NCBI RefSeq assembly: GCF_001559595.1
Contig: NZ_LNTY01000058.1
Location: forward strand, 1 to 64,000
DNA length: 64,000 bases
From: Enterovibrio coralii
Lineage (GTDB): Bacteria; Pseudomonadota; Gammaproteobacteria; Enterobacterales; Vibrionaceae
Reading direction: 5' to 3'
In this document: piece after piece, positions 6,880 through 35,112 of the stretch
Layout: each line of letters begins with the position of its first letter
Position numbering within the stretch: the first letter of the stretch is position 1
The notes under the pieces: model-generated
What the model saw: the letters and a program-made list of their open reading frames with translations, nothing else
Database searches by the model: none
Told to the model about the DNA's origin: nothing
Position numbers and translations under genes: made by a program

Positions 6880-6898
6880 CGTTCGAAGCGATGTTTGC

Positions 6899-8516: not shown

Positions 8517-8554
8517 CACTGTGCAACAAGGTGCTGCACAAAATTTGCCCTCTA

Positions 8555-8583
8555 TTGATAAATGTTTGTAACCGCTTTGTCAA
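8555..8583 (-). promoter_or_regulatory. Promoter of the lysC leader
   Basis: On the minus strand a perfect TTGACA (8578-8583) is followed by a 17-base spacer and TATCAA (8555-8560). Transcription would start near 8548, about 30 bases before the riboswitch. The rest of the 480-base gap between lysC and the next gene (about 8584-8733) shows only the ribosome site of the following gene. Confidence 0.7.
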
Positions 8584-8733
8584 TTATCCGCTGCATCAAA
8601 TTTCACCATATTTACAACGCACTTCTCAAAAGAAGCTTGATTGGGATAGTGTTTCTCACCCCTGAAGGTTTTCGATTGGCCAGTGAGGGTGTTAGGGTAA
8701 CGAGTAATATTGAAAGCATATGGAGTGCTGACC

Positions 8734-9851: not shown

Positions 9852-9865
9852 CGTTTGTTCCCAAC

Positions 9866-9896
9866 AAAAAGCCCAGACAACTGTCTGGGCTTTTTT
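9866..9896. terminator. Bidirectional terminator
   Basis: AAAAAGCCCAGACA pairs with TGTCTGGGCTTTTT. It separates the convergent aminotransferase and glycan ligase genes. Confidence 0.93.
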
Positions 9897-9900
9897 ATGT

Positions 9901-11569: not shown

Positions 11570-11571
11570 TC

Positions 11572-11593
11572 GATAACGTGGTAACGCTATCGG
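11572..11593 (-). other. Hairpin between uvrA and the ligase gene
   Basis: On the coding strand CGATAGCGT pairs with ACGTTATCG (8 of 9) around TACC. No T run follows, so it is not a standard terminator; it may stabilise or process the mRNA. Confidence 0.4.
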
Positions 11594-11594
11594 C

Positions 11595-15620: not shown

Positions 15621-16925
15621 TTATCCCACAGGAATAAAACCAAGTCGCCGTTTGACGGCGTAAAGCGCAAACAGGTTCTGGGTTGCAACTCCGACACTTA
15701 CCGCGATAGCCGCACCTAAAATGCCCAGATGCATTGTCATCACACAAAGTAGCGTCAGGGTAAACAGCGCGGAAAACACGGTAATGTTTCGCATGTCCTG
15801 CTCATGACCGCACATGGTGAGAAGAAACCCCACCGAACCTGTCGTTACATTGATCCCTTGTCCGATAGCTAAAATGACCAAAAGTTTCCCTGCTTCCGCG
15901 AATTCTGCGCCAAACAGCGACATGATCCATGAAGGCCAAATCAGTATGCCAATCAATATTGGCAAGGAGATGACGATCATCAGGCGGGTGGAAAACCGCG
16001 CCAATTTTTTGAGTTGTTCGATTTGACCGGAATGATAAAGGGCAGAGAAGCGCGGTGCCGCAACAAAGTTCACCACCATCAACATAAAGCTGATGAGCAG
16101 TGACGTGCGTTGGGCTGCGGAGAAAAGTGCTACATCCTCACTGGTACTAAAAAGCCCGACGACGACAATCGATGCCCACGGCAACGCTTGGCCTGAGGCT
16201 GAAATCAGCCACAGACTCGGTAAGGACTGCCAAAGCTCAGGCATCTTTTTCTGACTACTATCGAAACGATGCTGCGGCATCTTAAACCAAAGCACGAGAC
16301 CGACGATGACGGTAATCACTGAGCCAGCAAGGTAAATCTTGGCAGCAGTATCAGCACTTGTTGCATTGCTTGGCAGCCACAACAGCACAGGCAACATCAA
16401 CACGGTTACGCCAAGTTGCATCGAGCAAACCGCCGCAATGACACGCCTCACGGCTTGCAGGGCATAGCCGTTCAGAAGATAGAGCGTGATAAAAGGAATG
16501 GCGAGAGCAAAGCAGGCCAGTGTGGGGGCGGCTTTGGGTTTTTCGAACACCGCATCAGCGAGCCATGGCGTTAAAAGATAGACGACAAGACCTGCAAGAA
16601 AAGCAACGGGCACGGCGGCAAGGTATGCATTGGAAAACACCTGATTGGTGGTCGTCGTGTCTTTTTCGGCAAAGGCGTGGCCAACAAAGCGAAGCAGTGC
16701 ATTGTCTAGCCCCAAAAGGCAGAGTGTGCCCATCATGGTGGCAAGACCTAAACCTAAAAAGAAGTAACCGGACTCAGAAGGGCCAAGCACCCTTGCGACA
16801 ATGACGCTCAGGAAAAACGCGGCACTGGCGGACAAGATGCGAAATATCCCTGCCAAGGCGGTGTGGAAAAGAAGCTGCTTTCTTTCAGGTGCGAGCTGTT
16901 GGTATCGCTGGAGTAAGGAAGACAT
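15621..16925 (-). CDS. Wzx-type polysaccharide flippase (MATE/MOP superfamily)
   Basis: This is an about 434-residue membrane protein with 12-14 predicted helices and the N-terminal signature of polysaccharide transporters (AGIFRILSASAAFFLSVIVARVLGPSESGYFFLG). It would flip undecaprenyl-linked repeat units across the inner membrane. The ATG at 16925 is preferred because it lies 11 bases after the stop of the preceding gene; an upstream in-frame start would overlap that gene by about 50 bases. It is the last gene of the leftward exopolysaccharide operon. No clear terminator is visible in the 168 bases between it and galU. Confidence 0.85.
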   Translation of the reverse strand: MSSLLQRYQQLAPERKQLLFHTALAGIFRILSASAAFFLSVIVARVLGPSESGYFFLGLGLATMMGTLCLLGLDNALLRFVGHAFAEKDTTTTNQVFSNAYLAAVPVAFLAGLVVYLLTPWLADAVFEKPKAAPTLACFALAIPFITLYLLNGYALQAVRRVIAAVCSMQLGVTVLMLPVLLWLPSNATSADTAAKIYLAGSVITVIVGLVLWFKMPQHRFDSSQKKMPELWQSLPSLWLISASGQALPWASIVVVGLFSTSEDVALFSAAQRTSLLISFMLMVVNFVAAPRFSALYHSGQIEQLKKLARFSTRLMIVISLPILIGILIWPSWIMSLFGAEFAEAGKLLVILAIGQGINVTTGSVGFLLTMCGHEQDMRNITVFSALFTLTLLCVMTMHLGILGAAIAVSVGVATQNLFALYAVKRRLGFIPVG

Positions 16926-16936
16926 CACGGGAAAAC

Positions 16937-18657
16937 CTACCAAGGAAACATGATGGGCACGAGAAGGATGACGCCTAGCCCATAGCAAAGCGAGAGTGGT
17001 GCGCCCGCTTTCAGATAATCAAACGGCTTGTAACGGCCTGCGGAATACACCATGAGATTGGTTTGATAACCAAACGGAGACAAGAAGCTGGCACTGGCAG
17101 CGAATGCGACCGTCATAATGAAGGGCATGGGGTCGACGTTAAATCGGCTAGCGACAGCAAGGCCGATGGGAAACGCGATGGCCGCCGCTGCATTGTTGGT
17201 GATGAGCTCTGTCATTAGCCAGGTGGCGACATACAAAATGATCAACGCTGTCATTGGGCTGCCATTTTGTCCAAGAGTGAGAATGCCTCCGGCAATGTTT
17301 TCTGCCAACCCGGTTTGGCTGATAGCCTGCGCGAGCCCTAAAGCGGCCCCGACGACCAAGACCAGCTCGAACGGAAAGCGTCGGCGCAATTCGTGGATGG
17401 ACGTAAGCCGGGTGGCGACAGCAATGGCCAACAACACAATAAGCCCCTTGAACAAGGGCAGAATATCGAGAAGGCTTGCCGCGAGTGCAGCAAGTGCGCC
17501 TATACAAAACAATACAGATTGTCTGCGAGTTAGCGATGCGTTTTGCTCTCGGTTGCCGACCACAACGAAATTTTGATTCACGTTGCTGCGCGAGAAAAAA
17601 TCGTCACTGACGGCAAGAACCAATAAATCCCCGCCACGAAGTCGGATTTGGCCGAGCCCACCATTTACTCTGTGATCACCGCGTTTTATCGCAACCACAG
17701 CGGCACCAAATTGTGCGCGAAAATTGAGTGATTTTATTGTCTTGCCAGACACCATGGCATGAGGCGTCACGACAACATCGACGAGATTGCTCTCCCTTGC
17801 CGCTGAAGGGTCTGCAAACAGCGACAAACCGGGGAAGTGAGATATCAAGGACGTCGAATTGATATCACCGGAAAATACCAAGGTGTCGTTGGCTTCTAAA
17901 GGTTCATTGGGAGACACAGGAGAAATCACGCGGTGGTTTCTGATGATTTCAACAAGAAACAACCTTTCTAAGTGGCGAAGCCAACTTCTTCAATGCGTTG
18001 CCCGACAAGCGGTGAGTTTTCGGCGACTTTGGCTTCGAGAAAGTAGTTTTCATCGGTGCTGCCGACGTCTTCATTTTTTCCCGGCAGCAAGTGAAGCGAT
18101 ACCAGTGTAATGACCACCAAACCAACCAAGAACAAAGGAATACCGACAACGCTGAAATCAAAAAAGCGCAGCTCAGGCAATCCAGCATTGATGGTAAAGC
18201 CGGCGACCAGAAGATTGGTGGAGGTACCTATAAGGGTCATGGTGCCGCCGAGGATCGCCGCGTAAGACAAGGGAATAAGCAGCTTGCTTGACGGATGTTG
18301 GCTGTGAGCAAGCCTTCGCATCAACGTGGAAACGACCGCGGTATTGTTGATGACGGCAGAGAGTAAGCCAGCGGAAAGGGTGGTCTGTACGGTCACACGT
18401 TTTAGGCTGCCTTGAGTACACCAGGAGCCAAGTTGCGATACCAACGTCGTGCGTTCTAGCACCACAGAGACCAGCACCAAGAGCACCAAAACAACCAACG
18501 CGGGATTGACGAAGTTTGAGAAAAGCTGCTCAGCCGGGACGATATCAAGCAAAAGCAGCGCAACGAAAACCGCACCAAATACCAATGCCGGACGCAGTTC
18601 GGTAAGCAACAAGGTTGCTAACAAAAACCCAATCAAGAGTCCGACAATCCACTCCAT
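16937..18657 (-). CDS. SLC13-type anion permease with TrkA-C domains, possible sulfate importer (one frame break)
   Basis: Repaired, this is a 573-residue inner-membrane transporter. It has two halves of helices with the NNTAVVSTLMRRL and GTSTNLLVAG signatures in the first and TELITNNAAAAIAFPI and SPFGYQTNLMVYSAG in the second. Two soluble TrkA-C-like modules lie between them (around SGDINST and LRGGDLLVLAV). This layout is typical of SLC13/DASS permeases for sulfate or dicarboxylates. The frame breaks near 17975-17979; one base restores VGF(R)HLERLFLVEI. Its place in an operon with CysD, CysN and a sulfotransferase candidate suggests sulfate as substrate (inference). It starts directly after the preceding glycosyltransferase gene. 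Confidence 0.8.
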
Positions 18658-18660
18658 ACG

Positions 18661-19709
18661 TTAAACGCCGTAAACGATATGAAGTGCTGAACGCTGCTTT
18701 TCAGCACTGAAGTTGTCATTAATGGTGTCTAAGGAGGTTTGGTAATCGGGATGATCCGGGCGATGGCAAAAATTCACGATCTGCTTTGCCATGGCTTCAG
18801 GGGTGCTGACCATAAAGGGGTAATGCATGTGCTGTGTGGCACCGATGATACGAAGCACCATAGGGATTTTAAGCTTGGCCGCTTCCAACAAAGTAAGCGG
18901 CATGCCTTCCCACGCTGCGGTATGCAGATAAAGATCAGCGGCTTTTAGACGCTGCATAAGTTTGGCATGAGGGATCATGCCTGATACCTCCACACCTGCA
19001 TCGCGAAGTGCTTTTTCCATTTCTGCATCGCCACCGCCAAGCCAATGCAGCCTAACCTGCTTGCTTTCAGGATGCTGTTTTAAGTGCGCAATGGTCTCCA
19101 ATAAAAAGTCAGGGTCTTTTTGTGGGGAAATCCTGCCGACTACGACCACGTTGTAGATGGCCTTGGCGTCTTCATTCTCGGCCTGTTCGTCGTCCACCAA
19201 CTCTGCATCCAGCTCAGCGTAGTTATTCAAGTGAAACGCTTTTTTGGCACCAAGCTCGAGGGCCAATTCGCACTCTCTGTCGCTGCATCCTGCCACGCAA
19301 TCAATGCGAGAGAGCCCCATGGTCTCAAGCTTCATGTAGATCTCTTGCATGAAAGGGGAAATGTCGCGGCGCTCAAAGGCGTAGCAATGCGGGGTGTAGA
19401 CGATTTTCGCGTTTTTCTTTGGTAAATATCGCCCCAAAAAGCCGGCAAAACTGGAATGCAGATGGATGATGTCTGGCTGATTTTGCAAAACCGCTCTTCT
19501 TGCCTGCTTGAAAAACGTCAGCAAGCTGCCTTCGACCGTTTGTATTTCACTGAACAGATCATCAAACGCAAGTCCGATATCGTCCTGAGGCGTTTGCGTG
19601 CCAATAAGAGATGACGGATCGGATCTCCAGCCGTGGAGCGTGCATAGCTGCAAAGGGCGGTTTGAATACCGCCGCCGAACGCTTCAGTGATATGGAGTAC
19701 GGTTTTCAT
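18661..19709 (-). CDS. Glycosyltransferase family 4 (one frame break)
   Basis: This is a GT-B fold sugar transferase of 349 residues after repair. The N-terminus MKTVLHITEAFGGGIQTAL holds the acceptor-side Gly-rich loop, and DIIHLHSSFAG, VVVGRISPQKDPD and WEGMPLTLLEAAKLKIP are GT4 landmarks, the last carrying the donor-binding Glu region. The ATG overlaps the TGA of the preceding gene (TGATG), indicating translational coupling. The frame breaks near 19606-19608 in CATCTCTTATTGG; one base joins DPIRHL to LIGTQTPQ. It probably extends the exopolysaccharide repeat unit; sugar and linkage are unknown. Confidence 0.86.
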
Positions 19710-20521
19710 CACTGTCCCCATTTGTTTTTAAATGCTTGGATTTCACTTTCACTGTAGACGGCTTGATACAAAGGTGCATCGTACAAATGGAACAATTTTT
19801 CAAAAGGATAGGTGGCTTTGAACTGTCGGTAGAGCTCTGAATACCATTTGTTCGCAGCATCGTTGCTGGTGGTTAGGGTAAACGACGGCTCGGCCAGAAA
19901 ATCGGCCAACACAGAGGCAGAGTCATTGATAGCCTCACACTTCATCAAGAGGACATCGCGGCCACCCTGGGACATGGTCCAGTGACCTTGGTTGGGGTCA
20001 TGAACATGCTGGTAAATATCGACGCCAAACTGACGTTTTAATTCTCTGTCGAACCAGTCAGTGAAGTACTCAAGTCGGATTTGGGTATCGAAGGCATCAA
20101 ACAGATGCGCCAATGTTTTTTCGATGTCGCCGTGAATGGCTTCGTTTTTCTTTCCTGCCACAAACTGGATGTGCAAGTCTTGGAAAAAACGCGATACCAC
20201 GGTCGCGACAGGGTCTCTGACCAGCGTGATGATTTTGAGGGACTCACGCTTTTGCAGAATACGTTTGCGGTGCGCCAATGCCAGCTTGTAGCCCGCTCTG
20301 ACGTGCCAATCAAAAAAGCAGGCCACATCGGACGTGTTGCGGTACATCTGAAACTCTTCGTTGTCGTCAAAGGTATGAATGTGCCAGCTCGGTATGTTGG
20401 CTTGTTCCAAGGAAGCTTCGATGGATGACGAGCCAACTTTGCCCATTTGATAGACCAATACAAAACGCGGATCTTTCAACCGCTGGTCGAAGGCTTGTTG
20501 TCGGGAAAGGCTCGCTATCAT
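19709..20521 (-). CDS. Putative sulfotransferase of the NKWYS (capsular polysaccharide synthesis) family
   Basis: This is a 270-residue soluble protein. VYQMGKVGSSSIEASL near residues 24-39 resembles the PAPS 5'-phosphosulfate loop, and IITLVRDPVATVVSRFF near 96-112 resembles the 3'-phosphate site (Arg...Ser) of sulfotransferases. The literal motif NKWYS occurs near residue 224, the hallmark of the PF10364 family named for it. Only two other features point to function: the operon with CysD and CysN, and the place among glycan assembly genes. It likely sulfates the exopolysaccharide. It overlaps the wzy-like gene by 4 bases (ATGA) and the next glycosyltransferase by one base. Confidence 0.78.
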   Translation of the reverse strand: MIASLSRQQAFDQRLKDPRFVLVYQMGKVGSSSIEASLEQANIPSWHIHTFDDNEEFQMYRNTSDVACFFDWHVRAGYKLALAHRKRILQKRESLKIITLVRDPVATVVSRFFQDLHIQFVAGKKNEAIHGDIEKTLAHLFDAFDTQIRLEYFTDWFDRELKRQFGVDIYQHVHDPNQGHWTMSQGGRDVLLMKCEAINDSASVLADFLAEPSFTLTTSNDAANKWYSELYRQFKATYPFEKLFHLYDAPLYQAVYSESEIQAFKNKWGQ

Positions 20522-21747
20522 GATTTCTCCTTGGCGTGACGACGATGAACGGTGACGGATGCTTTGATAAACGTCGCGCGCGGAGCCACTGGCGACAGGG
20601 TTTCTACTCTGGTATTGACGAAAAAGGGCAGCAAGAACATCAGCATGATGGTGCTGTTCACGGCGACAAATAACACCATGGCGAGAATGTAAACGGACAA
20701 CAAAAATGCCACGGGATTCTGCGCACGTTGGCGGTAGAGCTTTCTTGCTCCAATCAAGAAGCCGCCGATGAGAATAAACAGACCAACAGTGCCGTATTCA
20801 ATCGCCACATCGAGGACAAAGTTGTGGGTGTAGATTGCAAGGTTCGGGTTTAAGAACAGCGGCTCTAAGTAATCTGGCAGCATCTTAGGTCCAACGCCAA
20901 GCCAAGGATGAGAGAGGAATAACTCAAACCCGTTGGCGAGCAAAAGCTTGCGCCAAAGCTCTGAGTCCCACTGCGCCTCTTCCTGATCGGCGAAGAGGAT
21001 GTCGTAGCGATTAAACTCTATGGCATCGAGCAGAGGCTGAGTGCCCCATGTCAGCCATGCAGAGAGCACTGAAAGCGATATTGCGGCCAAGGCAAACACC
21101 AGCATGGTTTGAATGTTCTGTTGTTGTCTCGCGTTGAGTGGACGACAGAACAGGTAGTCGGCAATCAAAACAGCGACGACACCAATCATGGCTTTTCGCT
21201 CACCGGACATGAGCAGCATGACGAAGGCAATCCCCAGAAACAGATGACTGAAGCGGATTTGATGGCGCATGACATAGAGCATGGCAAAGCAAAAACCGAA
21301 AAAGTACTTGGTGTTTTCAAGGTGTTTAAAGTCATTGAATTCGGGGTGGCTTAGGTGCCAAAGCGCGGTGTAGATAGCACCACCAAACGCATACAATGCA
21401 ACCAATGACAAAAAGCGCGGCGAAGCGAGCAGGTTTTTCTGATGCAACACGCCAAGAAAAGCGGCGATGGAAAGCCACTGAACCATCTCAATCAGAATAA
21501 GCTTGCTCGGTACGTTGTTAATGAGCCCGCACAAGACAATATAAATCACGAAGACAACGATAAATCCGGAGGCTTTGATGGTGCTATGCAGTAATTGTCC
21601 TCGGAGGGTCGCGATCGCCAACAAACCGATAGCGATAATGCCGAGCAGATCGGCAAGGTACAGGTTTACCCCAGCCACAGATACGCGGAAGGGGATAAAA
21701 AAGAGTATGACGGCGAAGGCAGCAAGGTGTTCCAAAGGTTTAGCCAT
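20518..21747 (-). CDS. O-antigen ligase/polymerase family protein (Wzy-like)
   Basis: This is a 409-residue membrane protein with about 11 hydrophobic segments and a large periplasmic loop (around residues 220-300). The motif THNFVLDVAIEYGTVGL, with the His-Asn and Glu typical of Wzy_C proteins, follows that loop. It would polymerise lipid-linked units in the periplasm. Its start overlaps the preceding glycosyltransferase by 8 bases and its stop overlaps the sulfotransferase start by 4. Polymerase is favoured over ligase because Wzx and Wzc partners are encoded in the same operon. Confidence 0.83.
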   Translation of the reverse strand: MAKPLEHLAAFAVILFFIPFRVSVAGVNLYLADLLGIIAIGLLAIATLRGQLLHSTIKASGFIVVFVIYIVLCGLINNVPSKLILIEMVQWLSIAAFLGVLHQKNLLASPRFLSLVALYAFGGAIYTALWHLSHPEFNDFKHLENTKYFFGFCFAMLYVMRHQIRFSHLFLGIAFVMLLMSGERKAMIGVVAVLIADYLFCRPLNARQQQNIQTMLVFALAAISLSVLSAWLTWGTQPLLDAIEFNRYDILFADQEEAQWDSELWRKLLLANGFELFLSHPWLGVGPKMLPDYLEPLFLNPNLAIYTHNFVLDVAIEYGTVGLFILIGGFLIGARKLYRQRAQNPVAFLLSVYILAMVLFVAVNSTIMLMFLLPFFVNTRVETLSPVAPRATFIKASVTVHRRHAKEKS

Positions 21748-22828
21748 TTAGCACCCTCTGATACGTGTCGTAATACTGGGTACGAAAGGACTGCAGCGTG
21801 AAAAGCTGACAGCGAGACACCGCGTAGTCCGCCGCTTCCTGATACGCCGCTGGGACGGAGCAAAGCATACTGATTTCTTCTGCCAGCATCTTGTCATTGC
21901 CAACATCAAACAGGTAAGCGTCGTTGCCAATCACTTCTGTCATGCCTTGAACGCGAGACGCTAGCACGGGCAAACCTGCCGCCATGGCTTCCACCGCAGC
22001 AAGGCCGAATCCTTCCACGCTCGAGCTTTGCACGTAGAGATGCAGTGAATCCAAAAACGCCGGAATGTCCTCTTGCACGCCATGAAAGAGGACGCGCTCT
22101 TGCAAGCCCAATTTAAGGGCTAAGGCTTGGTACTCCTCTCGACGGTCGCCGTCTCCTGCAAAGTGCAGTTCATAGTTGTCAGGCAACTGACTGAGTGCGC
22201 GAATGATAGTTGGATGGTCTTTATAAGCATGAAAGCGGCCAACCATGCCGATCCTTATGGTCTCATTCAGATCGGGTGATGGCTTTGGCTGCAAAGAGAA
22301 CTTGCTGAGCTCGACACCGTTAAGGATAACTTGGTAGTGTTTTTTCCAATGAGGCACAAATGATTCAAGGGCTTGCTTAACCTGATCGGTGATGCAGACG
22401 GTCACGTTATAGCGCCAATAAAGGATGTACTCGAAAGGCTTAAGCCAAAAGTGATCGCGGCGACGATTGTGCGTCGCGTGTTCGGTCTGAATGCGCTTTT
22501 TTCCAAATGCCGCCAACGCGAGGTAGATGGACGGGAACAGATGACCGTGGATCAAATCCGGCCATCTCAGGAGTTGCCACTTTTGCTTTAACGTCAACGT
22601 ATTCCAGGCAAAGCAGTCGATCCCTTGCGCTTCCAGTTCTTCTCGAAAGTCATTGTCGTCGTCGAGCGTGATCACGCGGATCTCGTACCCCTCTGGTGGC
22701 GGAAGAACCAGATCAATCACGAAACGTTGTGCTCCACCATTGCGCGAAAGGTCGTTGATAATGTGCAGCACTTTCGCGGTCGTCGGAGCCACTTTCTCTC
22801 TCTCAGTTGGTAGCGTCACGGTATTCAA
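21740..22828 (-). CDS. Glycosyltransferase family 4
   Basis: This is a 362-residue GT-B transferase. NDLSRNGGAQRFV near residue 25 is the N-terminal glycine loop, IGMVGRFHAYKDHPTIIRAL starts the donor domain, and SSSVEGFGLAAVEAMAAGLPVLAS carries the ExFGxxxxE-type donor site. The TTG at 22828 has a weak ribosome site; the GTG at 22792, preceded by GAGAGAAA, is a fair alternative. It follows cysN by 12 bases and overlaps the polymerase gene. Acceptor and sugar are unknown. Confidence 0.87.
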   Translation of the reverse strand: MNTVTLPTEREKVAPTTAKVLHIINDLSRNGGAQRFVIDLVLPPPEGYEIRVITLDDDNDFREELEAQGIDCFAWNTLTLKQKWQLLRWPDLIHGHLFPSIYLALAAFGKKRIQTEHATHNRRRDHFWLKPFEYILYWRYNVTVCITDQVKQALESFVPHWKKHYQVILNGVELSKFSLQPKPSPDLNETIRIGMVGRFHAYKDHPTIIRALSQLPDNYELHFAGDGDRREEYQALALKLGLQERVLFHGVQEDIPAFLDSLHLYVQSSSVEGFGLAAVEAMAAGLPVLASRVQGMTEVIGNDAYLFDVGNDKMLAEEISMLCSVPAAYQEAADYAVSRCQLFTLQSFRTQYYDTYQRVLNG

Positions 22829-22840
22829 AGCCAGCCCCGA

Positions 22841-24250
22841 TCACTCGATGGGTTTGGTTTCCCACTCGGGATAATGCTCCCGAATAAAACGGTTCAAGGC
22901 GATTTCTGCGTCGGAATACTGTCGCTGGGTGCCCGCTCCGGTTGGGGCGTGAATAGCTTCAACCATACCCGCCGCCACCGTGATGTTACTGAGGCGATCT
23001 ATCACAATAAACGCGCCGGTTTTGCGGATGTCGGCGTACTTGTCGGCGGCCACGTCAGCATTAACATGAAGGTCAACCAACCCAATCTCATTCAACGCCA
23101 GTGCATCAGCTGACTGAGTTTGAAAGGTATTGATATCAATCTTGTGGGAGATGTTGCTTACCCGACCCGTCACGCTGTGGGTCGCGAACTTAAAGTCATA
23201 GTCGTGTCCGACTTTGAGCGGGTCTTGAGACATCCACACCAAAGAGGCAGCGAAGCGATCTGAGAGTGTCGGCGCGGTATCTGGGTGCGCCAGCATGTCT
23301 CCGCGGGATATGTCGATTTCATCTTCGAGGGTCACCGTAATGGCGTTGTTCGGGGCGACACTGTTGAGGTCGGCATCATAGGTGACAATGCGGCTGACCT
23401 TGCTTTGTTGACCAGACGGCAACGCGACCACGGTATCGCCTTTTCGCAATATGCCGGAGGCCAGTGTGCCGCAATATCCGCGGAAACCATCGTTCGGCCG
23501 GTTGACGAATTGAACGGGAAAGCGCATGTGTTCGAGGTTCTGGTCGCGGCTGATCTCAACGCCTTCCAGCAATGCCATCAGAGACTCGCCTTGGTACCAC
23601 GGCATTTTTTCGCTGACGGAAACGACATTGTCGCCTTCAAGTGCAGAGATAGGCACGTAGTGCACGTCTTTGATGCCAAGGTGGTCAGCCATGGCTTGGT
23701 AATCAGCTTTGATGGCGTCGTAAACCTTCTCATCAAAGTCCACCAAGTCCATCTTGTTGATTGCCACCACGACATGGCGGATACCGAGCTTGCTGACGAT
23801 GTAGCTGTGTCTGCGGGTTTGTGTGAGCAGGCCTTTTCGGGCATCTACCATCACAATGGCCAGCTCGCAGTTAGATGCACCCGTTGCCATGTTGCGGGTG
23901 TATTGCTCGTGCCCCGGACAATCCGCAATGATGAATTTGCGCTTTTCGGTAGAGAAGTAGCGGTAAGCCACATCAATGGTGATGCCTTGCTCGCGCTCGG
24001 ATTGGAGGCCATCGACTAAAAGGGCAAGATCGAGTGCATCACCCGCATTGCCAACGCGTGCGTTGTCTTTGTGGAGTGACGACAAATGATCTTCGAAGAT
24101 CAGTTTTGTGTCGTAGAGCAGTCGGCCGATCAAGGTGGATTTACCGTCATCGACGCTGCCGCATGTGAGAAGCCTCAGCAGATCTTTGTTTTCATGCTGG
24201 TGGAGATAAGCTTCTATGTCCGTCGCGATAAGCGCAGAACTGTGGCTCAT
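22841..24250 (-). CDS. cysN: Sulfate adenylyltransferase subunit 1 (GTPase)
   Basis: CysN is the regulatory GTPase that drives APS formation by CysD. The G domain shows CGSVDDGKSTLIGRLLYD (G1), DCPGHEQY (G3) and NKMDLVDF (G4), followed by EF-Tu-like beta domains. The 469 residues match stand-alone CysN (475 in E. coli), so there is no fused CysC kinase as in NodQ. It follows cysD by 54 bases inside the exopolysaccharide operon rather than in the usual cysteine locus. A dedicated role in sulfate activation for glycan sulfation is likely. Confidence 0.95.
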   Translation of the reverse strand: MSHSSALIATDIEAYLHQHENKDLLRLLTCGSVDDGKSTLIGRLLYDTKLIFEDHLSSLHKDNARVGNAGDALDLALLVDGLQSEREQGITIDVAYRYFSTEKRKFIIADCPGHEQYTRNMATGASNCELAIVMVDARKGLLTQTRRHSYIVSKLGIRHVVVAINKMDLVDFDEKVYDAIKADYQAMADHLGIKDVHYVPISALEGDNVVSVSEKMPWYQGESLMALLEGVEISRDQNLEHMRFPVQFVNRPNDGFRGYCGTLASGILRKGDTVVALPSGQQSKVSRIVTYDADLNSVAPNNAITVTLEDEIDISRGDMLAHPDTAPTLSDRFAASLVWMSQDPLKVGHDYDFKFATHSVTGRVSNISHKIDINTFQTQSADALALNEIGLVDLHVNADVAADKYADIRKTGAFIVIDRLSNITVAAGMVEAIHAPTGAGTQRQYSDAEIALNRFIREHYPEWETKPIE

Positions 24251-24304
24251 GAGTCACTCCTTGTGCAGACAAGCGAAATTCCAAGTGTTTTCTGTGTGAG
24301 GCTT

Positions 24305-25222
24305 TTAGAAGTAGCCTTCTCGTTTCTTTTGTTCCATTGAGCCAGCCTGATCGTGGTCAATCACACGGCCTTGGCGCTCTGAGGTTTTGGTCAGCAGCAT
24401 TTCCTGAATGATTTCAGGCAAGGTCGCTGCCGTTGACTCGACTGCGCCCGTCAGTGGGTAGCAACCGAGTGTTCTAAAACGTACCGATTTCATCTGAGGT
24501 ACTTCGCCCTTTTCCAGCGGCATACGGTCGTCATCGACCATGATAAGTGTGCCATCACGCTCAACGACCGGACGCTCTTTGGCGTAGTAGAGCGGCACGA
24601 TGTCGATGTTTTCTAAATAGATGTATTGCCAGATATCCAGCTCCGTCCAGTTGGACAGAGGGAAGACGCGAATGCTCTCGCCTTTGTTGACTCGCCCGTT
24701 GTAGGTGTCCCAAAGTTCAGGACGTTGGTTTTTTGGGTCCCAGCGATGGTGCTTGTCGCGAAAAGAGTAGACGCGCTCCTTGGCGCGGCTTTTCTCTTCG
24801 TCACGCCTTGCGCCACCAAAAGCTGCATCAAAGCCATATTTATCGAGAGCTTGCTTGAGCCCTTGCGTTTTCATCACGTCGGTGTGCTTGGCACTGCCGT
24901 GGTCAAACGGGTTGATGCCCATGTCTACACCGTCTTGGTTGATGTGGACCAAGAGGTCTAACCCCAACTTTTTCGTCAAGGCATCGCGGAAGGTGATCAT
25001 CTCGCGAAACTTCCACGTGGTATCGACATGGAGCAGGGGAAACGGCGGTTTGCCGGGCGCAAAGGCTTTCATCGCCAAATGCAGCATAACCGCCGAATCT
25101 TTGCCGATGGAATAGAGCATGACAGGGTTATCAAACTCAGCGGCAACTTCACGAATGATGTGGATCGATTCGTTTTCCAGTTGCTTGAGATGGGTTTGGT
25201 TCAGCGCAATCATGTCCACCAT
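24305..25222 (-). CDS. cysD: Sulfate adenylyltransferase subunit 2
   Basis: CysD adenylates sulfate to APS. It is a PP-loop ATPase: [16 protein letters not shown] near residues 35-50 is the pyrophosphate loop, and [16 protein letters not shown] near residues 135-150 and the terminal [10 protein letters not shown] are family hallmarks. The 305 residues match E. coli (302). AAGGA precedes the ATG at 25222; the ATG at 25213 is an alternative. It lies 12 bases after the DHH phosphoesterase gene, in the same operon. Confidence 0.96.
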
Positions 25223-25233
25223 GACAAGTCCTT

Positions 25234-26205
25234 TTATCGTTCCAGCGGATAACGCTGGTGGAAAGCTTCAATAAAGTCGTTCAAAAGCTCAGCGGGTAAG
25301 GCGTTGATCCCCGCTGCTGCTTTACGGCCGCCGCCGGTAGGAAACGACGATGCCAACTCGTCTGCTCCCACTCGGTTTTTCAACGGTGCACGGATGCTGA
25401 CCAAGTAGTTACCGTCGGCTTTCGCCGTAATGACTGCGTTCGCAACCTCTGGGTCACGGTTGGTCATGTCATTTGAAAACACACCGCTGATACGTCTTGC
25501 CCACGCTTCGTCGGGGAACATAAACACCCGAGAGCCAGTACGCTCAGAATATGGCACGACAGCGGCTGCTTTTTCGCTGTCACCGAGGAAGCCATTTTCC
25601 AGCGTCGCGTAAACATCTGGGCGCTCCGCAATAAAGTTGAATGGGGAAGGGTAAACCGCCATCAGCTTGTAAATTTCGGCTGGGGAGAACAGCAGATCAG
25701 ACAAAGATGCGCCGTAACCGTTGTAGTTGAGGTAGGTGCCAAACTGCTTGAGCTTCAGAGTATCTTGTTCGCTGAGCCCACTTTTTTTCGCCAGAGTATC
25801 GGCCACGGCCAACATGTTGTCGCCATACGCGCCCACGAGTGCCCATTCGCGATAACGACCATCCAGCAATTTGTCGACGATCAAGCTGGTACAGGTGTTG
25901 GCGGCGGTATTGATATGTGTGGTGAGGGCTGGATGATCCGGCACGTCATCGGGGTTATGGTGATCGGCATAAAACACACGCACACCCTGCGACAACAGAT
26001 TGTCGAGGGCGCAGCGGTTTTTCCCCATGGCCACATCAAGTACCGTCACGTCTTGAGCGATGGCAGGGTCGACTTGTTTTAGCAGGGCGATATCTCGCTT
26101 CACCCCGGTGATGAGTGCACTGTCCTTGGGCGTGGCGAGACGTAGCTGGATGAGTGCGCAAATCCCATCCGCATCGCCATTGAATACATCAAAGCTGGTT
26201 TTCAT
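25234..26205 (-). CDS. DHH/DHHA1 family phosphoesterase, candidate pAp phosphatase
   Basis: This is a 323-residue cytoplasmic protein. The catalytic motifs of the DHH superfamily are in order: [13 protein letters not shown] near residue 6, [12 protein letters not shown] near 54, and [11 protein letters not shown] near 77 (the DHH motif). The C-terminal [13 protein letters not shown] near residue 296 is the GGGH-like DHHA1 substrate loop, with Arg-Lys in place of His. The superfamily includes NrnA-type enzymes that cleave pAp and short oligonucleotides. Its place between the chain-length kinase and cysD suggests it removes pAp left by the sulfotransferase. That role is inference; a nanoRNase or cyclic-dinucleotide role is possible. 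Confidence 0.78.
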
Positions 26206-26237
26206 TATTGTCCGTTTGTCCTTGTAACGTCAGCGTC

Positions 26238-28463
26238 CTAGCTGGCTTCTAAAGTTTCATCATCCCGTTTGTTGTTATTGTAGTAGCCGTAGTGAAGCTT
26301 ATATTTTTCCTCAGCATATTTGCTGGATAGCTGGTTGAGCACGACACCGTCAATTGTGATGTCATGGCGCACCAATTGCCCCACGGTCTGATTAATTTGT
26401 TTTTCTGTTGTTGATTCGGCTTTCACCACCAAAATCATGCCGCCTGCGAGTTTGCCGAGGATCAGGCTGTCACTGACAATTTGCACTGGTGGTGTGTCGA
26501 GCACGATACGGTCATAGCTCTGTTTGAGCTGATTGAGCAAAGCTGCAAACTTGGGCGAACCGAGCAGTTCTTGCGGGTTCGGCGGTAACAAGCCAGCGGG
26601 CAAGATATCGAGCGATGACGCTTCATCGTGATAAATACACTCGTTGACAGGTGCGCCCATCACCAAGATGTTTGTTAGACCTGCTTGGTTGCGCGGCAAG
26701 CCATAGCGTTGGCCAATAGCTGGTACGCGCAAATCGCAGTCAATGAGCAGGGTGCGCTCCATGTTTGCCAAGGATTGCGCGAGGTTCAATGCGACCGTCG
26801 TTTTCCCCTCAGATGGAAGGGAAGAGGTGACGGACAGTACTTTTCGGTTGCTGTTTGTGAGCGTCAGCAGAATGGATGTCCGAATGGTGCGGACAGATTC
26901 GCTGAACAGGGCTGCATCTGGGTCGAGATACAGAGTGTGGTCGATCGGGGTATGCTTGAATCGCTTCGTCTTAACCCGAGGTAAAAATCCTAGGTGCTGC
27001 AAGCCGAGCTTCTCCTCAACATCATCTGGTTTTTCAATGGTATTGCGGTAAGCGTCTGCAAGGAAAGCACCCATGATGGCAATCAATAGAGCGAATGCGG
27101 CACTGATCACGATTAATTTGGTGGTTTGTGGTCTGAAAGGGTCTTGTGGCGACTTCGCGATGTCAGTGAAGCGCGCATTAAGCGATTCAAAATCGCTGGT
27201 GGCGGTGGTTTCTTTCTGACGATTCAAGAACATTTCATAAAGCTGACGGTTTGAATCCACATCGCGCTTGAGCGCATCGTACTCGGTGCGCTTACTGGTG
27301 ATGTTCTGGTAGTCACCTTTTTTACTCTCAAGCTCTGCCACCAAGGCTGCTTCTTGTTTGATGGCATTGTTCATCTCTTTCTCAATACCACGGGCAAGTT
27401 CGCGAATAACAGAACGTGCTCTCGCTCTCACGGCATCAAGCTGGGCGCGCGCTTGGATCATTTTGTCGTGCTTGGGGCCATAGCGTTTGGCAAGCTCAGA
27501 CACCTTACGCTCAGCATCAATCTCTGCACTTTTCACATCGCGCACTTGCGGGTGATTGGAAATTTCAGGCACAGAAAGCAGGCTTGCAGGACTGCCTCCA
27601 CTGGTTTGGAGCAACGAATAAATCGCTTCTGCGGCGACACGGCGCTCTTTGGCTTCGGAGACGCGGATGGTGAGATTGGTGAGTTCCGTGCCTGCCAGCT
27701 CATCAATGTCACTCAGTTCAATCAAACCTTCTTGCTTGAGGAAGTTAGTTAGTGCCATCTCAGCGACTTCGAGATTGTCTTTGAGCACAGCAAGGCGTTC
27801 AGTCAGCCAAGTTGATGCGGTTTGCGTCGCCAGTAGGCGCGCTTCTAGGTTGGACTCTATGTAGGCGTTACCGACTGCATTCGCCACTTTGGCGGCGAGA
27901 TCTGGATTTGCCGAGTCAAAGTGGATGCGCACCAGTTGGGTATAACGGATAGGCTCAATCGCAAAATGTGATTTGAATTTTTTAAGTACTGCGCGCTTTG
28001 CGGCCTCGCTGTTGAGCTCGGTCGAGGGCTGTACGGGCTTAGGTAAGAAACCTTCCAAACCGTCGATTTGGCGCAGCAGCGTGAGCAGTCGATCGCGAGG
28101 TGAAGGCTTGCCGACCAGGCTGTTGAATTCTGGGTACTTCGCCAGTTCTAACTCTTCAATCACGTTTTCAGCAATGTGGTCAGAACGTAGGATTTCGAAT
28201 TGCGTTTGGTAATACTCTTTTTTATTCGTATCGAGGGCATATACCTCTTCGATAGAGACGGCCTTGTTGGCACTGGATTCGATCAACAAGGTGGCCGTCG
28301 CCCGATAAACCGGTTGGATGGACAGAATGAATAAGGTGGCGGCAGCAGTGACAATCGCGACAAAGAGAACAATGGGGAACCAGTAGCGCGCGAGCACATT
28401 CACGAATCGCTTAAAATCGACGCGTGGCGTGTCGTTGACCGGATTTGGCTCAATGATTTTCAT
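26238..28463 (-). CDS. Polysaccharide co-polymerase with tyrosine autokinase domain (Wzc/GumC-type)
   Basis: This 741-residue inner-membrane protein controls chain length and export. A Wzz domain with membrane segments near 31-50 and 447-466 brackets a long periplasmic coiled-coil region. The cytoplasmic BY-kinase follows: Walker A SSLPSEGKTT near 549-558, Walker A' LLIDCDLR, Walker B IVLDTPPV, and a C-terminal tyrosine cluster YKLHYGYYNNN. Both halves are on one chain, as in proteobacterial Wzc. An AAGGAC site precedes the ATG. It lies between the export lipoprotein-like gene and the DHH gene. Confidence 0.93.
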   Translation of the reverse strand: MKIIEPNPVNDTPRVDFKRFVNVLARYWFPIVLFVAIVTAAATLFILSIQPVYRATATLLIESSANKAVSIEEVYALDTNKKEYYQTQFEILRSDHIAENVIEELELAKYPEFNSLVGKPSPRDRLLTLLRQIDGLEGFLPKPVQPSTELNSEAAKRAVLKKFKSHFAIEPIRYTQLVRIHFDSANPDLAAKVANAVGNAYIESNLEARLLATQTASTWLTERLAVLKDNLEVAEMALTNFLKQEGLIELSDIDELAGTELTNLTIRVSEAKERRVAAEAIYSLLQTSGGSPASLLSVPEISNHPQVRDVKSAEIDAERKVSELAKRYGPKHDKMIQARAQLDAVRARARSVIRELARGIEKEMNNAIKQEAALVAELESKKGDYQNITSKRTEYDALKRDVDSNRQLYEMFLNRQKETTATSDFESLNARFTDIAKSPQDPFRPQTTKLIVISAAFALLIAIMGAFLADAYRNTIEKPDDVEEKLGLQHLGFLPRVKTKRFKHTPIDHTLYLDPDAALFSESVRTIRTSILLTLTNSNRKVLSVTSSLPSEGKTTVALNLAQSLANMERTLLIDCDLRVPAIGQRYGLPRNQAGLTNILVMGAPVNECIYHDEASSLDILPAGLLPPNPQELLGSPKFAALLNQLKQSYDRIVLDTPPVQIVSDSLILGKLAGGMILVVKAESTTEKQINQTVGQLVRHDITIDGVVLNQLSSKYAEEKYKLHYGYYNNNKRDDETLEAS

Positions 28464-28496
28464 GTTTACTTTGTCCTTGTAAAAAGCGCAAAAATT

Positions 28497-29016
28497 TTAG
28501 AAAAAGCTTTGCTCTACAACGATGATATCCCCAGGCTAACTGCCTGAGATAAGCCAACGTTTTTTTGTGTACTTCCGTTTTTGGCTTCTGTTTTTTGTAT
28601 TTTGTTTCTCGATGCTCGGTCGGTAAATCCACCCGCAATGGCGATGGCTTTACCCACGGTCAAACCTGGCTGGAAGTCGTATCCACCGGGCTGATTGACT
28701 TCTCCGTTCACGTAAAACTTACGAAATTGAATGACGTTAACCGTGACCTTTGGGTCAACCAGATAATCGCCGCGCAAGCCGCCCTCAATCAGACGTTGAA
28801 GCTCTCCCACCGATTTGCCTGCCGCCTGAAGCCTGCAAGGTAGGGGTAATCAAATCGGCCGCGTGCACTCAGCAAAATGTCCATGGAAAGGTCATCTTCA
28901 CCATAGACTTTGATGGAAATCCGATCGCCATCATCCAGCACGTACTTGTCCTCGCTCGCGGAATGCACGAACAAAGGAAACAGCAGCAATAAAATGGCGG
29001 CTAATTGACGTATCAA
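28497..29016 (-). CDS. Short Wza-type polysaccharide export protein (two frame breaks)
   Basis: Repaired, this is a 173-residue periplasmic or outer-membrane export protein. A signal peptide (MIRQLAAILLLLFPLFVHSA) is followed by the Poly_export domain start DKYVLDDGDRISIKVYGEDDLS, an SLBB-like segment FYVNGEVNQPGGYDFQPGLTV, and the usual end GDIIVVEQSFF. There is no lipobox. The start is TTG at 29016, with GGAG 10 bases before it, overlapping the TGA of the preceding gene. Breaks lie near 28829-28832 (restores LAGLQAAGKSVGELQ) and 28534 (restores AVSPGDIIVV). The short form has one SLBB domain and lacks Wza's C-terminal outer-membrane helix. Confidence 0.85.
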
Positions 29017-30217
29017 AGGCTTATCTCCGTCCCTATGAAATAGAGTGTTTGGTCGTAGCTGTACCCGTTAAACGTAGAATCTCGATTGAAGTGCGAAGCC
29101 CCAATCGAAATATCCCACCAACGCTTTAAACTGTAGACAAAGGTCAGTCCCAACGTAGTGTCCTTGTCTTTTCGAATGCCCGGGTAGTCGTTCACGCCAT
29201 ATCGAGTGGAAAGCACCGAACCGAACAAGGGGGTCCAGTTGTGGTCCCACTCAAGGCGAATGGATTGGTCTTCGACATAATCGCCTTGAATGTCTGGGTC
29301 GCGGACGTAGTCGCGGCCTTCCAAGCGAAACTCGCTAAAATCTGTCGGTGACCAGCTCAGATTGAGACGCCAGCTAAGGCCATTAAAGTCACTTCTGCGG
29401 CTGTCTTTAAAATCTTTGTTTTGCCACCCGACAAGTACCGTACCTTTGGTTTTGCCTGTGATATCCCATTCCAGACCGCCATAAAGGAAGGTGTTTTGGC
29501 TATCGCGCGTGTAGCCGGGATCGGGGTCGACGTACTGGTAGCTGCGATCTTCAAATCGCGCGATGGTCACCGCTTGAAAATAGCTTGAAAGCGCGTAGTA
29601 GAACTCACCGCTCAGATAAGGTTGTTTCCAATCGTAGTATCGGGTTTCTTCTACTTGGCTGTTTCGGATAAAGGTTTGGTCTTTGTACTTTTTATCTTCA
29701 TAGCCGATGATGCCAACCAAGCGTCCTTTTGCCCCAATGGCACCATAGGTGTAGCGGGCGTTGAGATCTTGATGGTTGAAGCGAAGCGGTTCGTCCACCG
29801 CAAGGCTGATGCCTTCAGTCAGGCCAGTACCTCGAGGTTCGTGGGTAACACGAAACACGTAATCGAGTCTTAAGCGGTTGCGGATGTCGAACATCCAAAA
29901 CGACGATGCATGGGCGCGATGATCGATAAAGTCATCGTCACTGCTGTCGCTGTAACTGAAGGCGTCGAAACGGTAGTCGAATTGATAGGCACCGCGATCG
30001 GTTTCGAGCTGTGCTATCACTTTGGGAGAGACAATAAATCGCGGTGAACTGACGGTATTGTTTTCCGTTCGTCGTACGTTGTCATTATGTCCCACGCTCA
30101 TGGCGATAGAGGGATGATATCGATACCGTTTTCTGTTTGATACGCGAGCGGCTCCACCGCCAATGCAGAGAAAGGAACGAATAACAGCGGACTGAATACT
30201 GCATGTCTTAGCTTCAC
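29013..30217 (-). CDS. BBP2-type outer-membrane beta-barrel protein (one frame break)
   Basis: Repaired, this is a 401-residue outer-membrane protein. The signal peptide is (V/M)KLRHAVFSPLLFVPFSALA. The mature part is a series of aromatic-ended alternating strands (for instance YQFDYRFDAFSYSD, RLRLDYVFRVTHEP, SIRLEWDHNW), ending in a strand with YFIGTEISL. This is the pattern of the BBP2 barrel family found in exopolysaccharide loci. The GTG at 30217 has a perfect AGGAGG seven bases upstream. The frame breaks near 30109-30113; one base joins IDIIPS to IAMSVGHNDNV. It probably forms, with the short Wza, the outer-membrane exit of the polymer. Confidence 0.8.
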
Positions 30218-30227
30218 GCCTTCCTCC

Positions 30228-31624
30228 TTAATACGCCGTTTTACCGACAAAGCCTTTAAAGACGGTAGCAATGACAATTTTGATATCCATCCAAAGCGAC
30301 CAGTTTTGGATGTACTCCAAATCAAACTGAACGCGCTTTTCCATCTTGTCCAAGGTATCTGTTTCGCCGCGATAACCGTTGATTTGCGCCCAACCCGTGA
30401 TGCCTGGTTTCACCTTGTGGCGCAGCATGTAGCGATCAACGATGGCACGATATTGCTCGTTGTGAGCAACAGCATGAGGCGAGGGCCAACAATGGACATA
30501 GACCCTTGCAGGACATTGAAAAATTGCGGCAACTCATCGAGTGAGGTACGACGGATAAACGCACCAAAAGGCGTAACACGTGGGTCGTTTTTGGTGGCCT
30601 GCTTCACTACGTCGCCGTTATCCATTACGGACATTGAGCGAAACTTCCACACTTCAATCTTTCTGCCGTCTAAACCATAACGGTATTGTTTGAAGATAAC
30701 TGGCCCAGGCGAAGAGAGTTTCACACCGATGGCGACGCCAATCAGAACCGGCGAAATCAAAAGCAGGATCAGCACCGAAAGTACGATGTCTTCAAGACGT
30801 TTTGCCCATGCAGATACGCCACTAAACGGGGTGTCATAGACACTCAACGTGTGGACATGACCAATGGTCTGCCAGCGGCTATGGAGCAAGTTGTAGGTGA
30901 AGAAGTCCGGCACCAGATACGTGGTGGCAGTGGTGTCCGCAAACTGGTTGAGGTATTTCGCAATGCGATCTTTGGCGTGCATTGGCATGGCGATGTAAAC
31001 ATGCTGCAAGTTACCTTGCTTAGCTTGTTCAAGTGCCTCACTGACTTTACCGAGCATGGGCGATGGCAGACCGCCTTCGATACGATCGGCGCATCTGTCT
31101 TCGTAAAACCCTTGGAGCTCAATCCCCAACGCGTGGTTACGGTTGAATTCTTTGGCAAGTTCGATGCCATTTGCGGTGGTGCCAATGATGGCCGCACGAC
31201 GGGTATTAAACCCATAGTTGCGCAATTTGCTGAGTGCAGAGCGCGCAAGATAACGCCACAGCACTAAGCCAATACCGCCCATCACAAACCACAGTGACAT
31301 GACGACGCGGGAGAATTCTTCCCCAGATTTTGAGAAGAAGAAAAACGCCACGAGCAGGGCACAAGCACCAAACCAAGGCAAAAGCGTGGCAACCATTTGG
31401 CCTTGGAAATTACTCACGCGCCAAGAGCGGTAGAGGTGCGCACTTTCTGCAAAAAGCAGGTAACACACTGATATCAAGGTTCCAATCAGGAGCCAGTTAT
31501 GAATGACGTTTCCTAAATGAATGAAACTCGCGGCCGCGAGCGATGCACCTATGACCGTTAAATCACAGAGTCGATAAAGGATGGCGAATTCAGCGCCATG
31601 TGTTCGAATCTTTCTGCTGTCCAT
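30228..31624 (-). CDS. Undecaprenyl-phosphate glucose phosphotransferase, WcaJ family (one frame break)
   Basis: This initiating enzyme attaches the first sugar phosphate to undecaprenyl phosphate. The N-terminal half has four to five membrane helices and a CoA-binding-like domain (RRAAIIGTTANG). The C-terminal catalytic half has the SSPGPVIFKQYRYGLDGRK, WKFRSM, RRTSLDELPQFFNVLQGSMSIVGPR and KPGITGWAQINGYRGET motifs. The frame breaks near 30477-30480, where CGCCTCATG needs one C to read GPRPHAVAHNEQ; the repaired protein has 465 residues. It is the first gene of the operon. The ATG at 31624 is favoured over a TTG at 31639. Confidence 0.93.
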
Positions 31625-31683
31625 AACACAAGCTCTCAAACGTTGACGCTCGTAAAAGAAGTGCGTTTTTTATTTCAATTCAT

Positions 31684-35043: not shown

Positions 35044-35112
35044 GGCGTACCTGAGAGCAGGCCTTACGCAAACCTCACATCCTTGTTGTGCGTAAAGGGC
35101 AGTTTCACAATG

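Follow-up and report, generated by a model that had tools for sequence, protein, structure and literature searches.

A cps/brp-type exopolysaccharide operon of Enterovibrio and Grimontia with a sulfate-supply module and a predicted sulfotransferase

Introduction

An operon of Enterovibrio coralii in which genes of sulfate metabolism stand among those for synthesis and export of an exopolysaccharide (EPS) raises the question of whether its polymer is sulfated, and how it relates to the biofilm loci of other vibrios. The operon was analyzed within a stretch of 64,000 nt, positions 1-64,000 of contig NZ_LNTY01000058.1 (hereafter the window), and consists of 13 genes, one of which encodes a protein of the Pfam family NKWYS. 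On gene content and order, it is the Enterovibrio/Grimontia form of the Vibrionaceae biofilm EPS locus (cpsA-J, brp), to which a sulfate-supply module of cysD, cysN, an SLC13-type permease gene and a DHH gene is added. We consider it likely that in this cps/brp-type locus the NKWYS protein uses the built-in supply to sulfate the polymer. Published work, cited by PMC number, is drawn on for the passages of each paper that bear on these genes.

Relation to the cps and brp Loci

The window operon has the gene set and order of the cps/brp loci, wcaJ-bbp2-wza-wzc-gt-(wzy)-NKWYS-gt-wzx, and its neighbours are of the brpT-cabABC type (VpsT-like regulator, RTX matrix protein, type I secretion system (T1SS)), in the layout given in PMC4584020. 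An earlier note made from the DNA alone, which knew of no described Vibrionaceae locus with exactly this gene set, needs amending in that there are precedents, the backbone being that of V. parahaemolyticus cpsA-J and, as far as the genomes can be identified, of V. vulnificus brp. In V. parahaemolyticus the cps locus is linked to biofilm EPS, wrinkly colonies and pellicles (PMC9604176, PMC12405303, PMC6113621).

NKWYS was found in 36 of 329 genomes of the family, namely 16 of Enterovibrio/Grimontia and 20 of a genus (g12) that we infer to be Vibrio. Four cpsA primers of PMC12405303, compared with their cloning tails omitted, match one of these genomes (G603, locus L324) exactly at the start of the operon; the forward qPCR cpsA primer has one exact genome match among the 20. 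This genome was accordingly taken as V. parahaemolyticus. Its operon reads wcaJ, bbp2, wza, wzc, NKWYS, gt, wzy, NKWYS, gt, wzx, which is ten genes, as in cpsA-J, and the letters E-J were assigned from this order. Primers for "cpsA-J" in PMC9100390 gave no close match to the Vibrio loci or the window. A further genome (G715, locus L326) is taken to be V. vulnificus. Its operon holds genes at positions A, B, C, D, F, H, I and J together with a small VanZ-like gene, the E and G positions being empty, and adjoins two VpsT-like regulators, an RTX protein and T1SS genes; this layout fits the name brpABCDFHIJK and the brpT-cabABC-brp map of PMC4584020.

The ten-gene backbone of V. parahaemolyticus cpsA-J/K (VPA1403-1412/1413) thus shares its order with the Enterovibrio operon, but carries a second NKWYS gene at the cpsE position, where Enterovibrio has dhh-cysD-cysN, and has no SLC13 gene separating gtB from wzx; in G603 DHH is found on a different contig. 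V. vulnificus brpT-cabABC-brpABCDFHIJK (PMC4584020) resembles the window in that regulator, RTX matrix protein, T1SS and EPS operon are adjacent. Its presumed counterpart L326 has an NKWYS gene at the H position and differs in lacking cysDN, SLC13, DHH and wzy, and in having the EPS operon convergent with the cabABC-like genes, whereas the two are collinear in the window. The same backbone was observed in eight other Vibrio loci (V. harveyi, rotiferianus, owensii, jasicida, diabolicus, mytili, maerlii and strain AND4), all without cysDN, DHH and SLC13, and six of them with a second NKWYS-like gene. Gene order is kept in seven of these eight, gtA following wzx in V. maerlii (L225), and the records of V. 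diabolicus and V. mytili have the NKWYS gene split in two. Apart from the wzy-less form, all Vibrionaceae forms of the operon that were examined place NKWYS between wzy and gtB.

Conservation in Enterovibrio and Grimontia

The NKWYS protein is present in 16 of 18 genomes of the window's genus, a set that includes E. nigricans, norvegicus, baiacu and calviensis and G. hollisae, indica, celer and marina. No NKWYS match was obtained in the remaining two of the 18 genomes searched, G003 (2.1 Mb) and G012 (2.6 Mb), which we presume to be fish-light-organ symbionts. All 13 genes were found in one order in 14 of 18 genomes, that is, in the window and 13 fetched loci, with some genes in pieces in three loci (L017, L020 and L028). 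The co-occurrence of NKWYS, cysDN, DHH and BBP2 genes in one operon, for which the earlier note had proposed a search, is accordingly confirmed in these 14 genomes, and repetition of the full order in 13 further genomes bears out that the arrangement is not due to chance.

The same genomic site was also recognized by eye in two genomes of another Vibrionaceae genus (G031 and G022), with ssb-like and LysR-like genes on one side and galU and uvrA-like genes on the other. There it holds only a wzc remnant and dhh (L334, 8574-9376; L335, 8505-9365), the EPS operon having apparently been lost. In a genus of small genomes (G025, locus L333), a VpsT-like regulator (72% identical), dhh and galU adjoin with no EPS operon between them.

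The NKWYS Protein as a Predicted Sulfotransferase

Two motifs, GKVGSSS and RDPxATVxSRxF, are invariant in all 16 NKWYS proteins of the genus. We take them to be the 5'-phosphosulfate-binding (5'-PSB) loop and the 3'-phosphate-binding (3'-PB) motif of sulfotransferases dependent on 3'-phosphoadenosine 5'-phosphosulfate (PAPS). The Pfam NKWYS model spans only the part of the protein C-terminal to both. The two motifs recur in 10 of 13 NKWYS loci found with Pfam, the window included (the exceptions are L123, L127 and L131), and in 54 of 58 loci from outside the Vibrionaceae versus 0 of 1160 shuffled sequences, the first motif having belonged to the search pattern for those 58. The window protein matches Sulfotransfer_1 (PF00685) at 23.1 bits, the cut-off being 22, and among 15 NKWYS family members matches at E<=0.1 were obtained to Sulfotransfer_1 for nine and to Sulfotransfer_3 for seven. 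In a profile search of PDB sequences the top five matches were heparan sulfate 3-O-sulfotransferase chains (E 0.08-0.16) and 8 of 13 rows were sulfotransferases, a weak but consistent signal. From these motifs and matches, NKWYS is predicted to be a PAPS-dependent sulfotransferase.

Six of the NKWYS loci are from Bacillota (L232-L237). Five of them carry an APS kinase (the enzyme for adenosine 5'-phosphosulfate), alone or fused, together with CysQ over its curated cut-off, and a CysC match was observed in these five only among the 58 non-Vibrionaceae loci. A full ATP sulfurylase is present in four of the five, as CysD/CysN in two and as Sat in two, so that the PAPS-making set is complete in four of the six loci; the fifth has a partial CysN fused to APS kinase. 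SLC13 occurs in three Bacillota loci, and NKWYS adjoins wzx in four (L232, L233, L235 and L236). A tblastn search of L234, for which the queries were CysC and the Enterovibrio proteins but neither Sat nor CysQ, detected no APS kinase or sulfate genes. Another phylum has therefore assembled a similar set around NKWYS and Wzx, with a different phosphatase for 3'-phosphoadenosine 5'-phosphate (PAP) and, in two cases, a different ATP sulfurylase.

The five loci with NKWYS, PAPS genes and CysQ are polysaccharide-like and belong to Vulcanibacillus, Aquibacillus, Salinibacillus, Gracilibacillus and Desulfosporosinus (L232, L233, L235, L236 and L237); they are candidates for sulfated exopolysaccharides. 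A second Vibrionaceae case of such a cassette was seen in a different polysaccharide locus of Vibrio (L329 in G519, ~1-10600), where dhh, cysC, cysD, SLC13, wzx and NKWYS run in one direction and no cysN match was found. Four tandem NKWYS-like matches occur in a Chloroflexota metagenome-assembled genome (MAG; L274, ~7925-11700).

Sulfate Supply Genes

Full-length CysD is present in two copies in 13 of 18 genus genomes; G005 has one plus a broken operon copy, G001, G014 and G012 have one, and G003 has none. A strong APS kinase (CysC) match was found once per genome in 17 of 18 genomes, outside the operon and in two pieces in G005. All other APS kinase matches were weak (E above 1e-5), the sole match in G003 being at 2e-4. 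The operon thus provides a second ATP sulfurylase and presumably shares the genome's one strong CysC. The stated hallmark of sulfated polysaccharide clusters is the presence of PAPS-synthesis genes and a sulfotransferase within the cluster (PMC11641403); here CysDN and NKWYS are in the operon and the APS kinase is elsewhere in the genome. The earlier description of sulfate activation genes embedded in the locus therefore stands for cysDN, and has to be qualified in that the set is incomplete.

Operon and housekeeping CysDN form separate groups in trees, which have open forks and carry a long-branch warning. Relative to one operon copy, the housekeeping proteins are 53-56% (CysN) and 78-81% (CysD) identical. 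A recent duplication of the housekeeping cysDN was considered and rejected, as operon and housekeeping copies group apart; acquisition of the operon cysDN by transfer is possible. For the SLC13-like protein, TrkA-C domains were found along with a weak match to sodium:sulfate symporters, and its substrate is taken to be sulfate.

The DHH Protein

The metal-binding residues D11, D13, D57, D81-H82-H83 and D129 are invariant in 13 of 13 DHH proteins. The position of GGGH, which we take to be the DHHA1 motif, reads GGGR in all 13, and because of this replacement the protein is not placed in NrnA; it is predicted only to work like a PAP phosphatase. A comparable enzyme is the archaeal MtPAPP (PMC10322725, PDB 8a8k), which shares the DHH-DHHA1 architecture and whose gene is near those for ATP sulfurylase and APS kinase; the window DHH protein, however, gave no single-sequence phmmer match to 8a8k, the likeness being one of fold only, seen with a low-confidence model.

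A DHH match was found in 72 of 369 genomes of the class. We considered whether the gene is dedicated to this operon and rejected the idea, since it is common in Vibrionaceae and survives loss of the operon. The protein is probably a general PAP phosphatase of Vibrionaceae, as judged from its distribution, that is here located in the operon. An anti-correlation between DHH and CysQ was also looked for and none was found over the 369 genomes, CysQ falling short of its cut-off in 26 of the 72 genomes with DHH and in 102 of the 297 without.

Proposed Pathway and Alternative Readings

In the pathway that we propose, SLC13 would import sulfate, the extra CysDN would make APS, and the housekeeping CysC would convert APS to PAPS. 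The NKWYS sulfotransferase would then sulfate the undecaprenyl-linked repeat unit on the cytoplasmic side and the DHH protein would clear the inhibitory by-product PAP, after which Wzx would flip the unit, Wzy polymerise it and Wzc, Wza and BBP2 export the product. The earlier proposal of a Wzx/Wzy operon for a probably sulfated polymer is strengthened by the PAPS motifs, by the PAPS genes that independently accompany NKWYS in Bacillota and by the conservation of the operon; as to sulfate in the polymer itself, "probably" remains the right word, this being read from genes.

Several observations weigh against the pathway. APS kinase is absent from the operon and CysN is of the unfused form by profile search. 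Two Enterovibrio MAGs (G001 and G014, loci L030 and L031) keep NKWYS and DHH without operon cysD, cysN and slc13, and because they retain the operon in this state the cysDN/SLC13 module is dispensable for the locus. When NKWYS proteins were scanned singly at E<=1e-3, none of 11 others matched a sulfotransferase family, the window protein being alone among 12 in doing so. All matches in the PDB profile search are above E 0.05, a single-sequence PDB search with the NKWYS protein returned no sulfotransferase, and its predicted structure (predicted local distance difference test score, pLDDT, 75) gave no PDB match at E<0.1, with SULT1C3 ranking 30th at E 1.3. Of 39 other Vibrionaceae examined, 32 have DHH, among them every one of the 20 Vibrio genomes that carry NKWYS, and the gene persists beside the wzc remnant and galU in G031 and G022, which lack the rest of the operon. 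The set dhh-slc13-cysN-cysD was observed in just 2 of 72 DHH loci from outside the genus, and by a strict motif none of these 72 has a sulfotransferase-like open reading frame (ORF).

Operon-made PAPS might instead signal for the expression of biofilm genes, a role proposed in V. vulnificus, and NKWYS be some other modifying transferase. We regard this as improbable, even though in PMC6113621 cysD and cysC were needed for brp expression, a cysH mutant raised it, and brpF and brpJ mutants left it undisturbed, so that feedback from the polymer was not involved. The marginal family-level matches to sulfotransferases would also agree with a signal. Against it stand the PAPS motifs of NKWYS and the presence of PAPS genes around it in Bacillota, as well as the report that mutants in cysD and cysC regained brp expression, but not rugosity, when cyclic di-GMP (c-di-GMP) was raised (PMC6113621), which leaves a second need for PAPS after expression. 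It is very unlikely that NKWYS is a sulfotransferase with a target other than this polymer, such as a matrix protein, a lipid or an O-antigen: a substrate cannot be read from sequence and the neighbouring genes encode an RTX protein and type I secretion, but the NKWYS gene keeps its place between wzy and gtB in the Vibrionaceae forms with wzy and stands beside wzx in the four Bacillota loci named above. Just as doubtful is the view that the operon is dead in the window's strain. Compared with the sister genome G002, 5 of its 13 genes are frameshifted (wcaJ, bbp2, wza, gtB and slc13), but so are 10 further genes outside it, a total of 15 of 48 reference ORFs, and because genes across the whole window rather than the operon alone are affected, the frameshifts are probably assembly error. 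No operon gene is obviously shortened in 12 of 15 relatives, L017, L020 and L028 being those with broken ones.

For the DHH protein, the alternative to a PAP phosphatase is a nanoRNase or a pGpG/pApA phosphodiesterase of cyclic-dinucleotide signalling, which we consider unlikely while giving it some weight. A Foldseek search with the DHH model (pLDDT 66) returned 49 matches at E<=1e-3 among the matches listed, all of them DHH-family enzymes or DHHA1-like domains of alanyl-tRNA synthetase. The best E-value was that of a mycobacterial NrnA homologue (4ls9), and Rv2837c, GdpP, DhhP and V. cholerae PggH also match; together with the lack of any relation between DHH and CysQ presence over the 369 genomes, this would suit a nanoRNase. 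The highest query TM-score among the matches listed, on the other hand, was to the Methanothermococcus PAP phosphatase 8a8k (0.58). Genomic context likewise points to PAP: in 20 of the 72 further DHH loci retrieved, CysC and DHH are no more than 2.2 kb apart, and in 15 of these no more than 250 bases, APS kinase and SLC13 are the two commonest neighbour clusters in the 65 loci with a recovered DHH ORF, and CysC is over cut-off in 60 of 72 DHH genomes versus 155 of 297 others (uncorrected for relatedness). Among CysC-positive genomes, CysQ is below cut-off in 21 of 60 with DHH versus 28 of 155 others (odds ratio 2.4, p 0.011, uncorrected for relatedness). Within the genus, CysQ is over cut-off in 16 of 18 genomes and below it in exactly G001 and G014, the NKWYS/DHH genomes without operon cysDN, where DHH may be the only PAP phosphatase; this loss of CysQ may be one event, the two being much alike in sequence. 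CysQ also sits in five Bacillota NKWYS loci, and NrnA-type enzymes are capable of both activities (PMC10322725). The DHH gene, which had been left unexplained in the earlier note, is thus most likely that of a PAP phosphatase, going by its CysC neighbourhood and its fold.

Comparison with Known Sulfated Polysaccharide Clusters

Sulfated capsular polysaccharide (CPS) with PAPS genes is known from Vibrio sp. KMM 8419, and a Wzx/Wzy-type sulfated EPS from Synechocystis; what is added here is a cps/brp backbone with sulfate supply. In KMM 8419 second copies of cysDNC and sulfotransferase genes are located in a polysaccharide cluster and the CPS was shown to be sulfated (PMC11641403). That cluster differs from the Enterovibrio operon in its ABC-transporter (Kps) export, its 80-gene locus with several sulfotransferases, the inclusion of cysC and a backbone other than cps/brp. 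The synechan xss cluster (PMC8205485) likewise contains sulfotransferases, but it is cyanobacterial, these are of other families, and the passages that list its genes name none for PAPS supply. The Vibrio eps (HE800) cluster is reported in Enterovibrio and was not found in Grimontia (PMC5801674); the gene set of the window is instead that of cps/brp.

In the open-access literature, subscription papers being outside the scope, no paper was found that names a sulfotransferase in cps/brp or describes this Enterovibrio operon, and "NKWYS" as a literature term had no match. In text searches of the papers concerned, "sulfotransferase" was absent from PMC7829505 and PMC9888727, and "sulf" from PMC8941931, while "sulf" occurs once in PMC12405303; the sole "sulfotransferase" of PMC6113621 refers to CysH.

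Significance for Vibrio Biofilms

In V. vulnificus, induction of brp expression by calcium was reported to require cysD and cysC, as did, independently, rugosity (PMC6113621); the same paper refers to V. parahaemolyticus, in which lesions of cysD or cysC prevent the formation of cps-dependent pellicles. Its authors read the PAPS effect as the action of a second messenger and for rugosity suggested CabA or an unidentified matrix component. Because both the cps and the brp locus, in the genomes that we assign to these species, encode NKWYS, PAPS may be the sulfate donor in both. A PAPS-dependent sulfotransferase in brp/cps offers a direct alternative for the second (rugosity) need. It does not account for the effect on expression, since brpF and brpJ mutants were without that effect (PMC6113621).

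We lean towards the view that the main matrix polysaccharide of Vibrionaceae biofilms, of cps/brp type, is sulfated, that the NKWYS proteins (brpH; cpsH and cpsE) are its sulfotransferases and that the need for PAPS in rugosity and pellicles is at least in part a need for substrate. If BrpH and CpsE/CpsH are PAPS-dependent, the defects in rugosity and pellicles could arise simply from an unsulfated matrix. Enterovibrio and Grimontia would, if the cps/brp glycan is sulfated, display the link directly, the genes assigned to sulfate import, sulfate activation and PAP clearance being part of their operon. The same view, if true, would provide a biochemical function for a Pfam family described as "putative capsular polysaccharide synthesis protein". 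Sulfated glycans bind calcium, and a sulfated matrix would then fit the secreted calcium-binding protein.

Gene Content of the Window and Sequence Quality

As proposed in the earlier note, the 13 genes of the operon lie on one strand, all minus, at 15621-31639 in the ORF list of the window, and their assignments are backed by Pfam/NCBIfam profile searches (Table 1), the DHH protein only below its Pfam cut-offs. Spacing within the operon consists of overlaps or short gaps, after allowing for frameshifts. The VpsT-like regulator, RTX protein, ABC transporter and HlyD genes are directly upstream on the same strand.

Table 1. Features of the operon and its upstream neighbours in the window.
Feature	Coordinates	Strand	Basis
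LuxR-family regulator with VpsT-like receiver domain (BrpT/VpsT-like)	36115..36792	-	PF00196 1.7e-22; PF21155 VpsT-like_REC 1.9e-9
RTX calcium-binding repeat protein, 205 aa, putative CabA-like matrix protein	35165..35782	-	PF00353 6.6e-37; position as cabA in PMC4584020
Type I secretion ABC transporter (CabB/MfpB-like), frameshift-split	33335..35067	-	Profile search, frameshift comparison
HlyD-type membrane fusion protein (CabC/MfpC-like)	32046..33338	-	PF13437
wcaJ, initiating sugar-phosphate transferase (cpsA/brpA counterpart), 3' part out of frame	30231..31639	-	PF02397, PF13727
bbp2, outer-membrane beta-barrel (cpsB/brpB counterpart), 5' part out of frame	29013..30205	-	PF10082 3.1e-24
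wza, outer-membrane polysaccharide export (cpsC/brpC counterpart), frameshifted	28514..29016	-	SLBB; ~173 aa in relatives
wzc, co-polymerase/tyrosine autokinase (cpsD/brpD counterpart)	26238..28463	-	TIGR01005, TIGR01007
dhh, DHH-DHHA1 phosphoesterase, predicted PAP phosphatase	25234..26205	-	DHHA1 2.2e-5, DHH 4e-5, both below Pfam cut-offs
cysD, second copy, ATP sulfurylase small subunit	24305..25222	-	TIGR02039 537 bits; other copy on another contig of the window's genome (G000:C55; the window is on C58)
cysN, second copy, ATP sulfurylase large subunit, without fused APS kinase	22841..24250	-	NF003478 716 bits
gtA, GT4 glycosyltransferase A (cpsF/brpF counterpart)	21740..22828	-	PF00534 9.1e-34
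wzy, polymerase (cpsG counterpart)	20518..21747	-	PF04932 (Wzy_C) 2e-17
NKWYS protein, predicted PAPS-dependent sulfotransferase (cpsH/brpH counterpart)	19709..20521	-	PF10364 1.2e-34, PF00685 5.7e-5, PAPS motifs
gtB, GT4 glycosyltransferase B (cpsI/brpI counterpart), 5' part out of frame	18661..19721	-	PF13692 1e-16
slc13, SLC13-type permease with TrkA-C domains, putatively for sulfate, frameshift-split	16937..18657	-	PF03600, PF02080, PF00939
wzx, flippase (cpsJ/brpJ counterpart)	15621..16988	-	PF01943 1.2e-12

A scan for RfaH/JUMPstart elements returned a single GGCGGTAG in the window, on the opposite strand inside wzy, as chance predicts. The short Wza described earlier proved to be an artefact, the 98-aa protein being a frameshift fragment: of 15 relatives, 12 have a Wza of 172-174 aa, two one of 208 aa as called and one a fragment, and the full-length protein of one relative gave Poly_export and SLBB domains on profile scanning. 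A short repeat unit, suggested by the two GT4 genes, is plausible. The contamination value of the window's genome in the genome table is 5.45.

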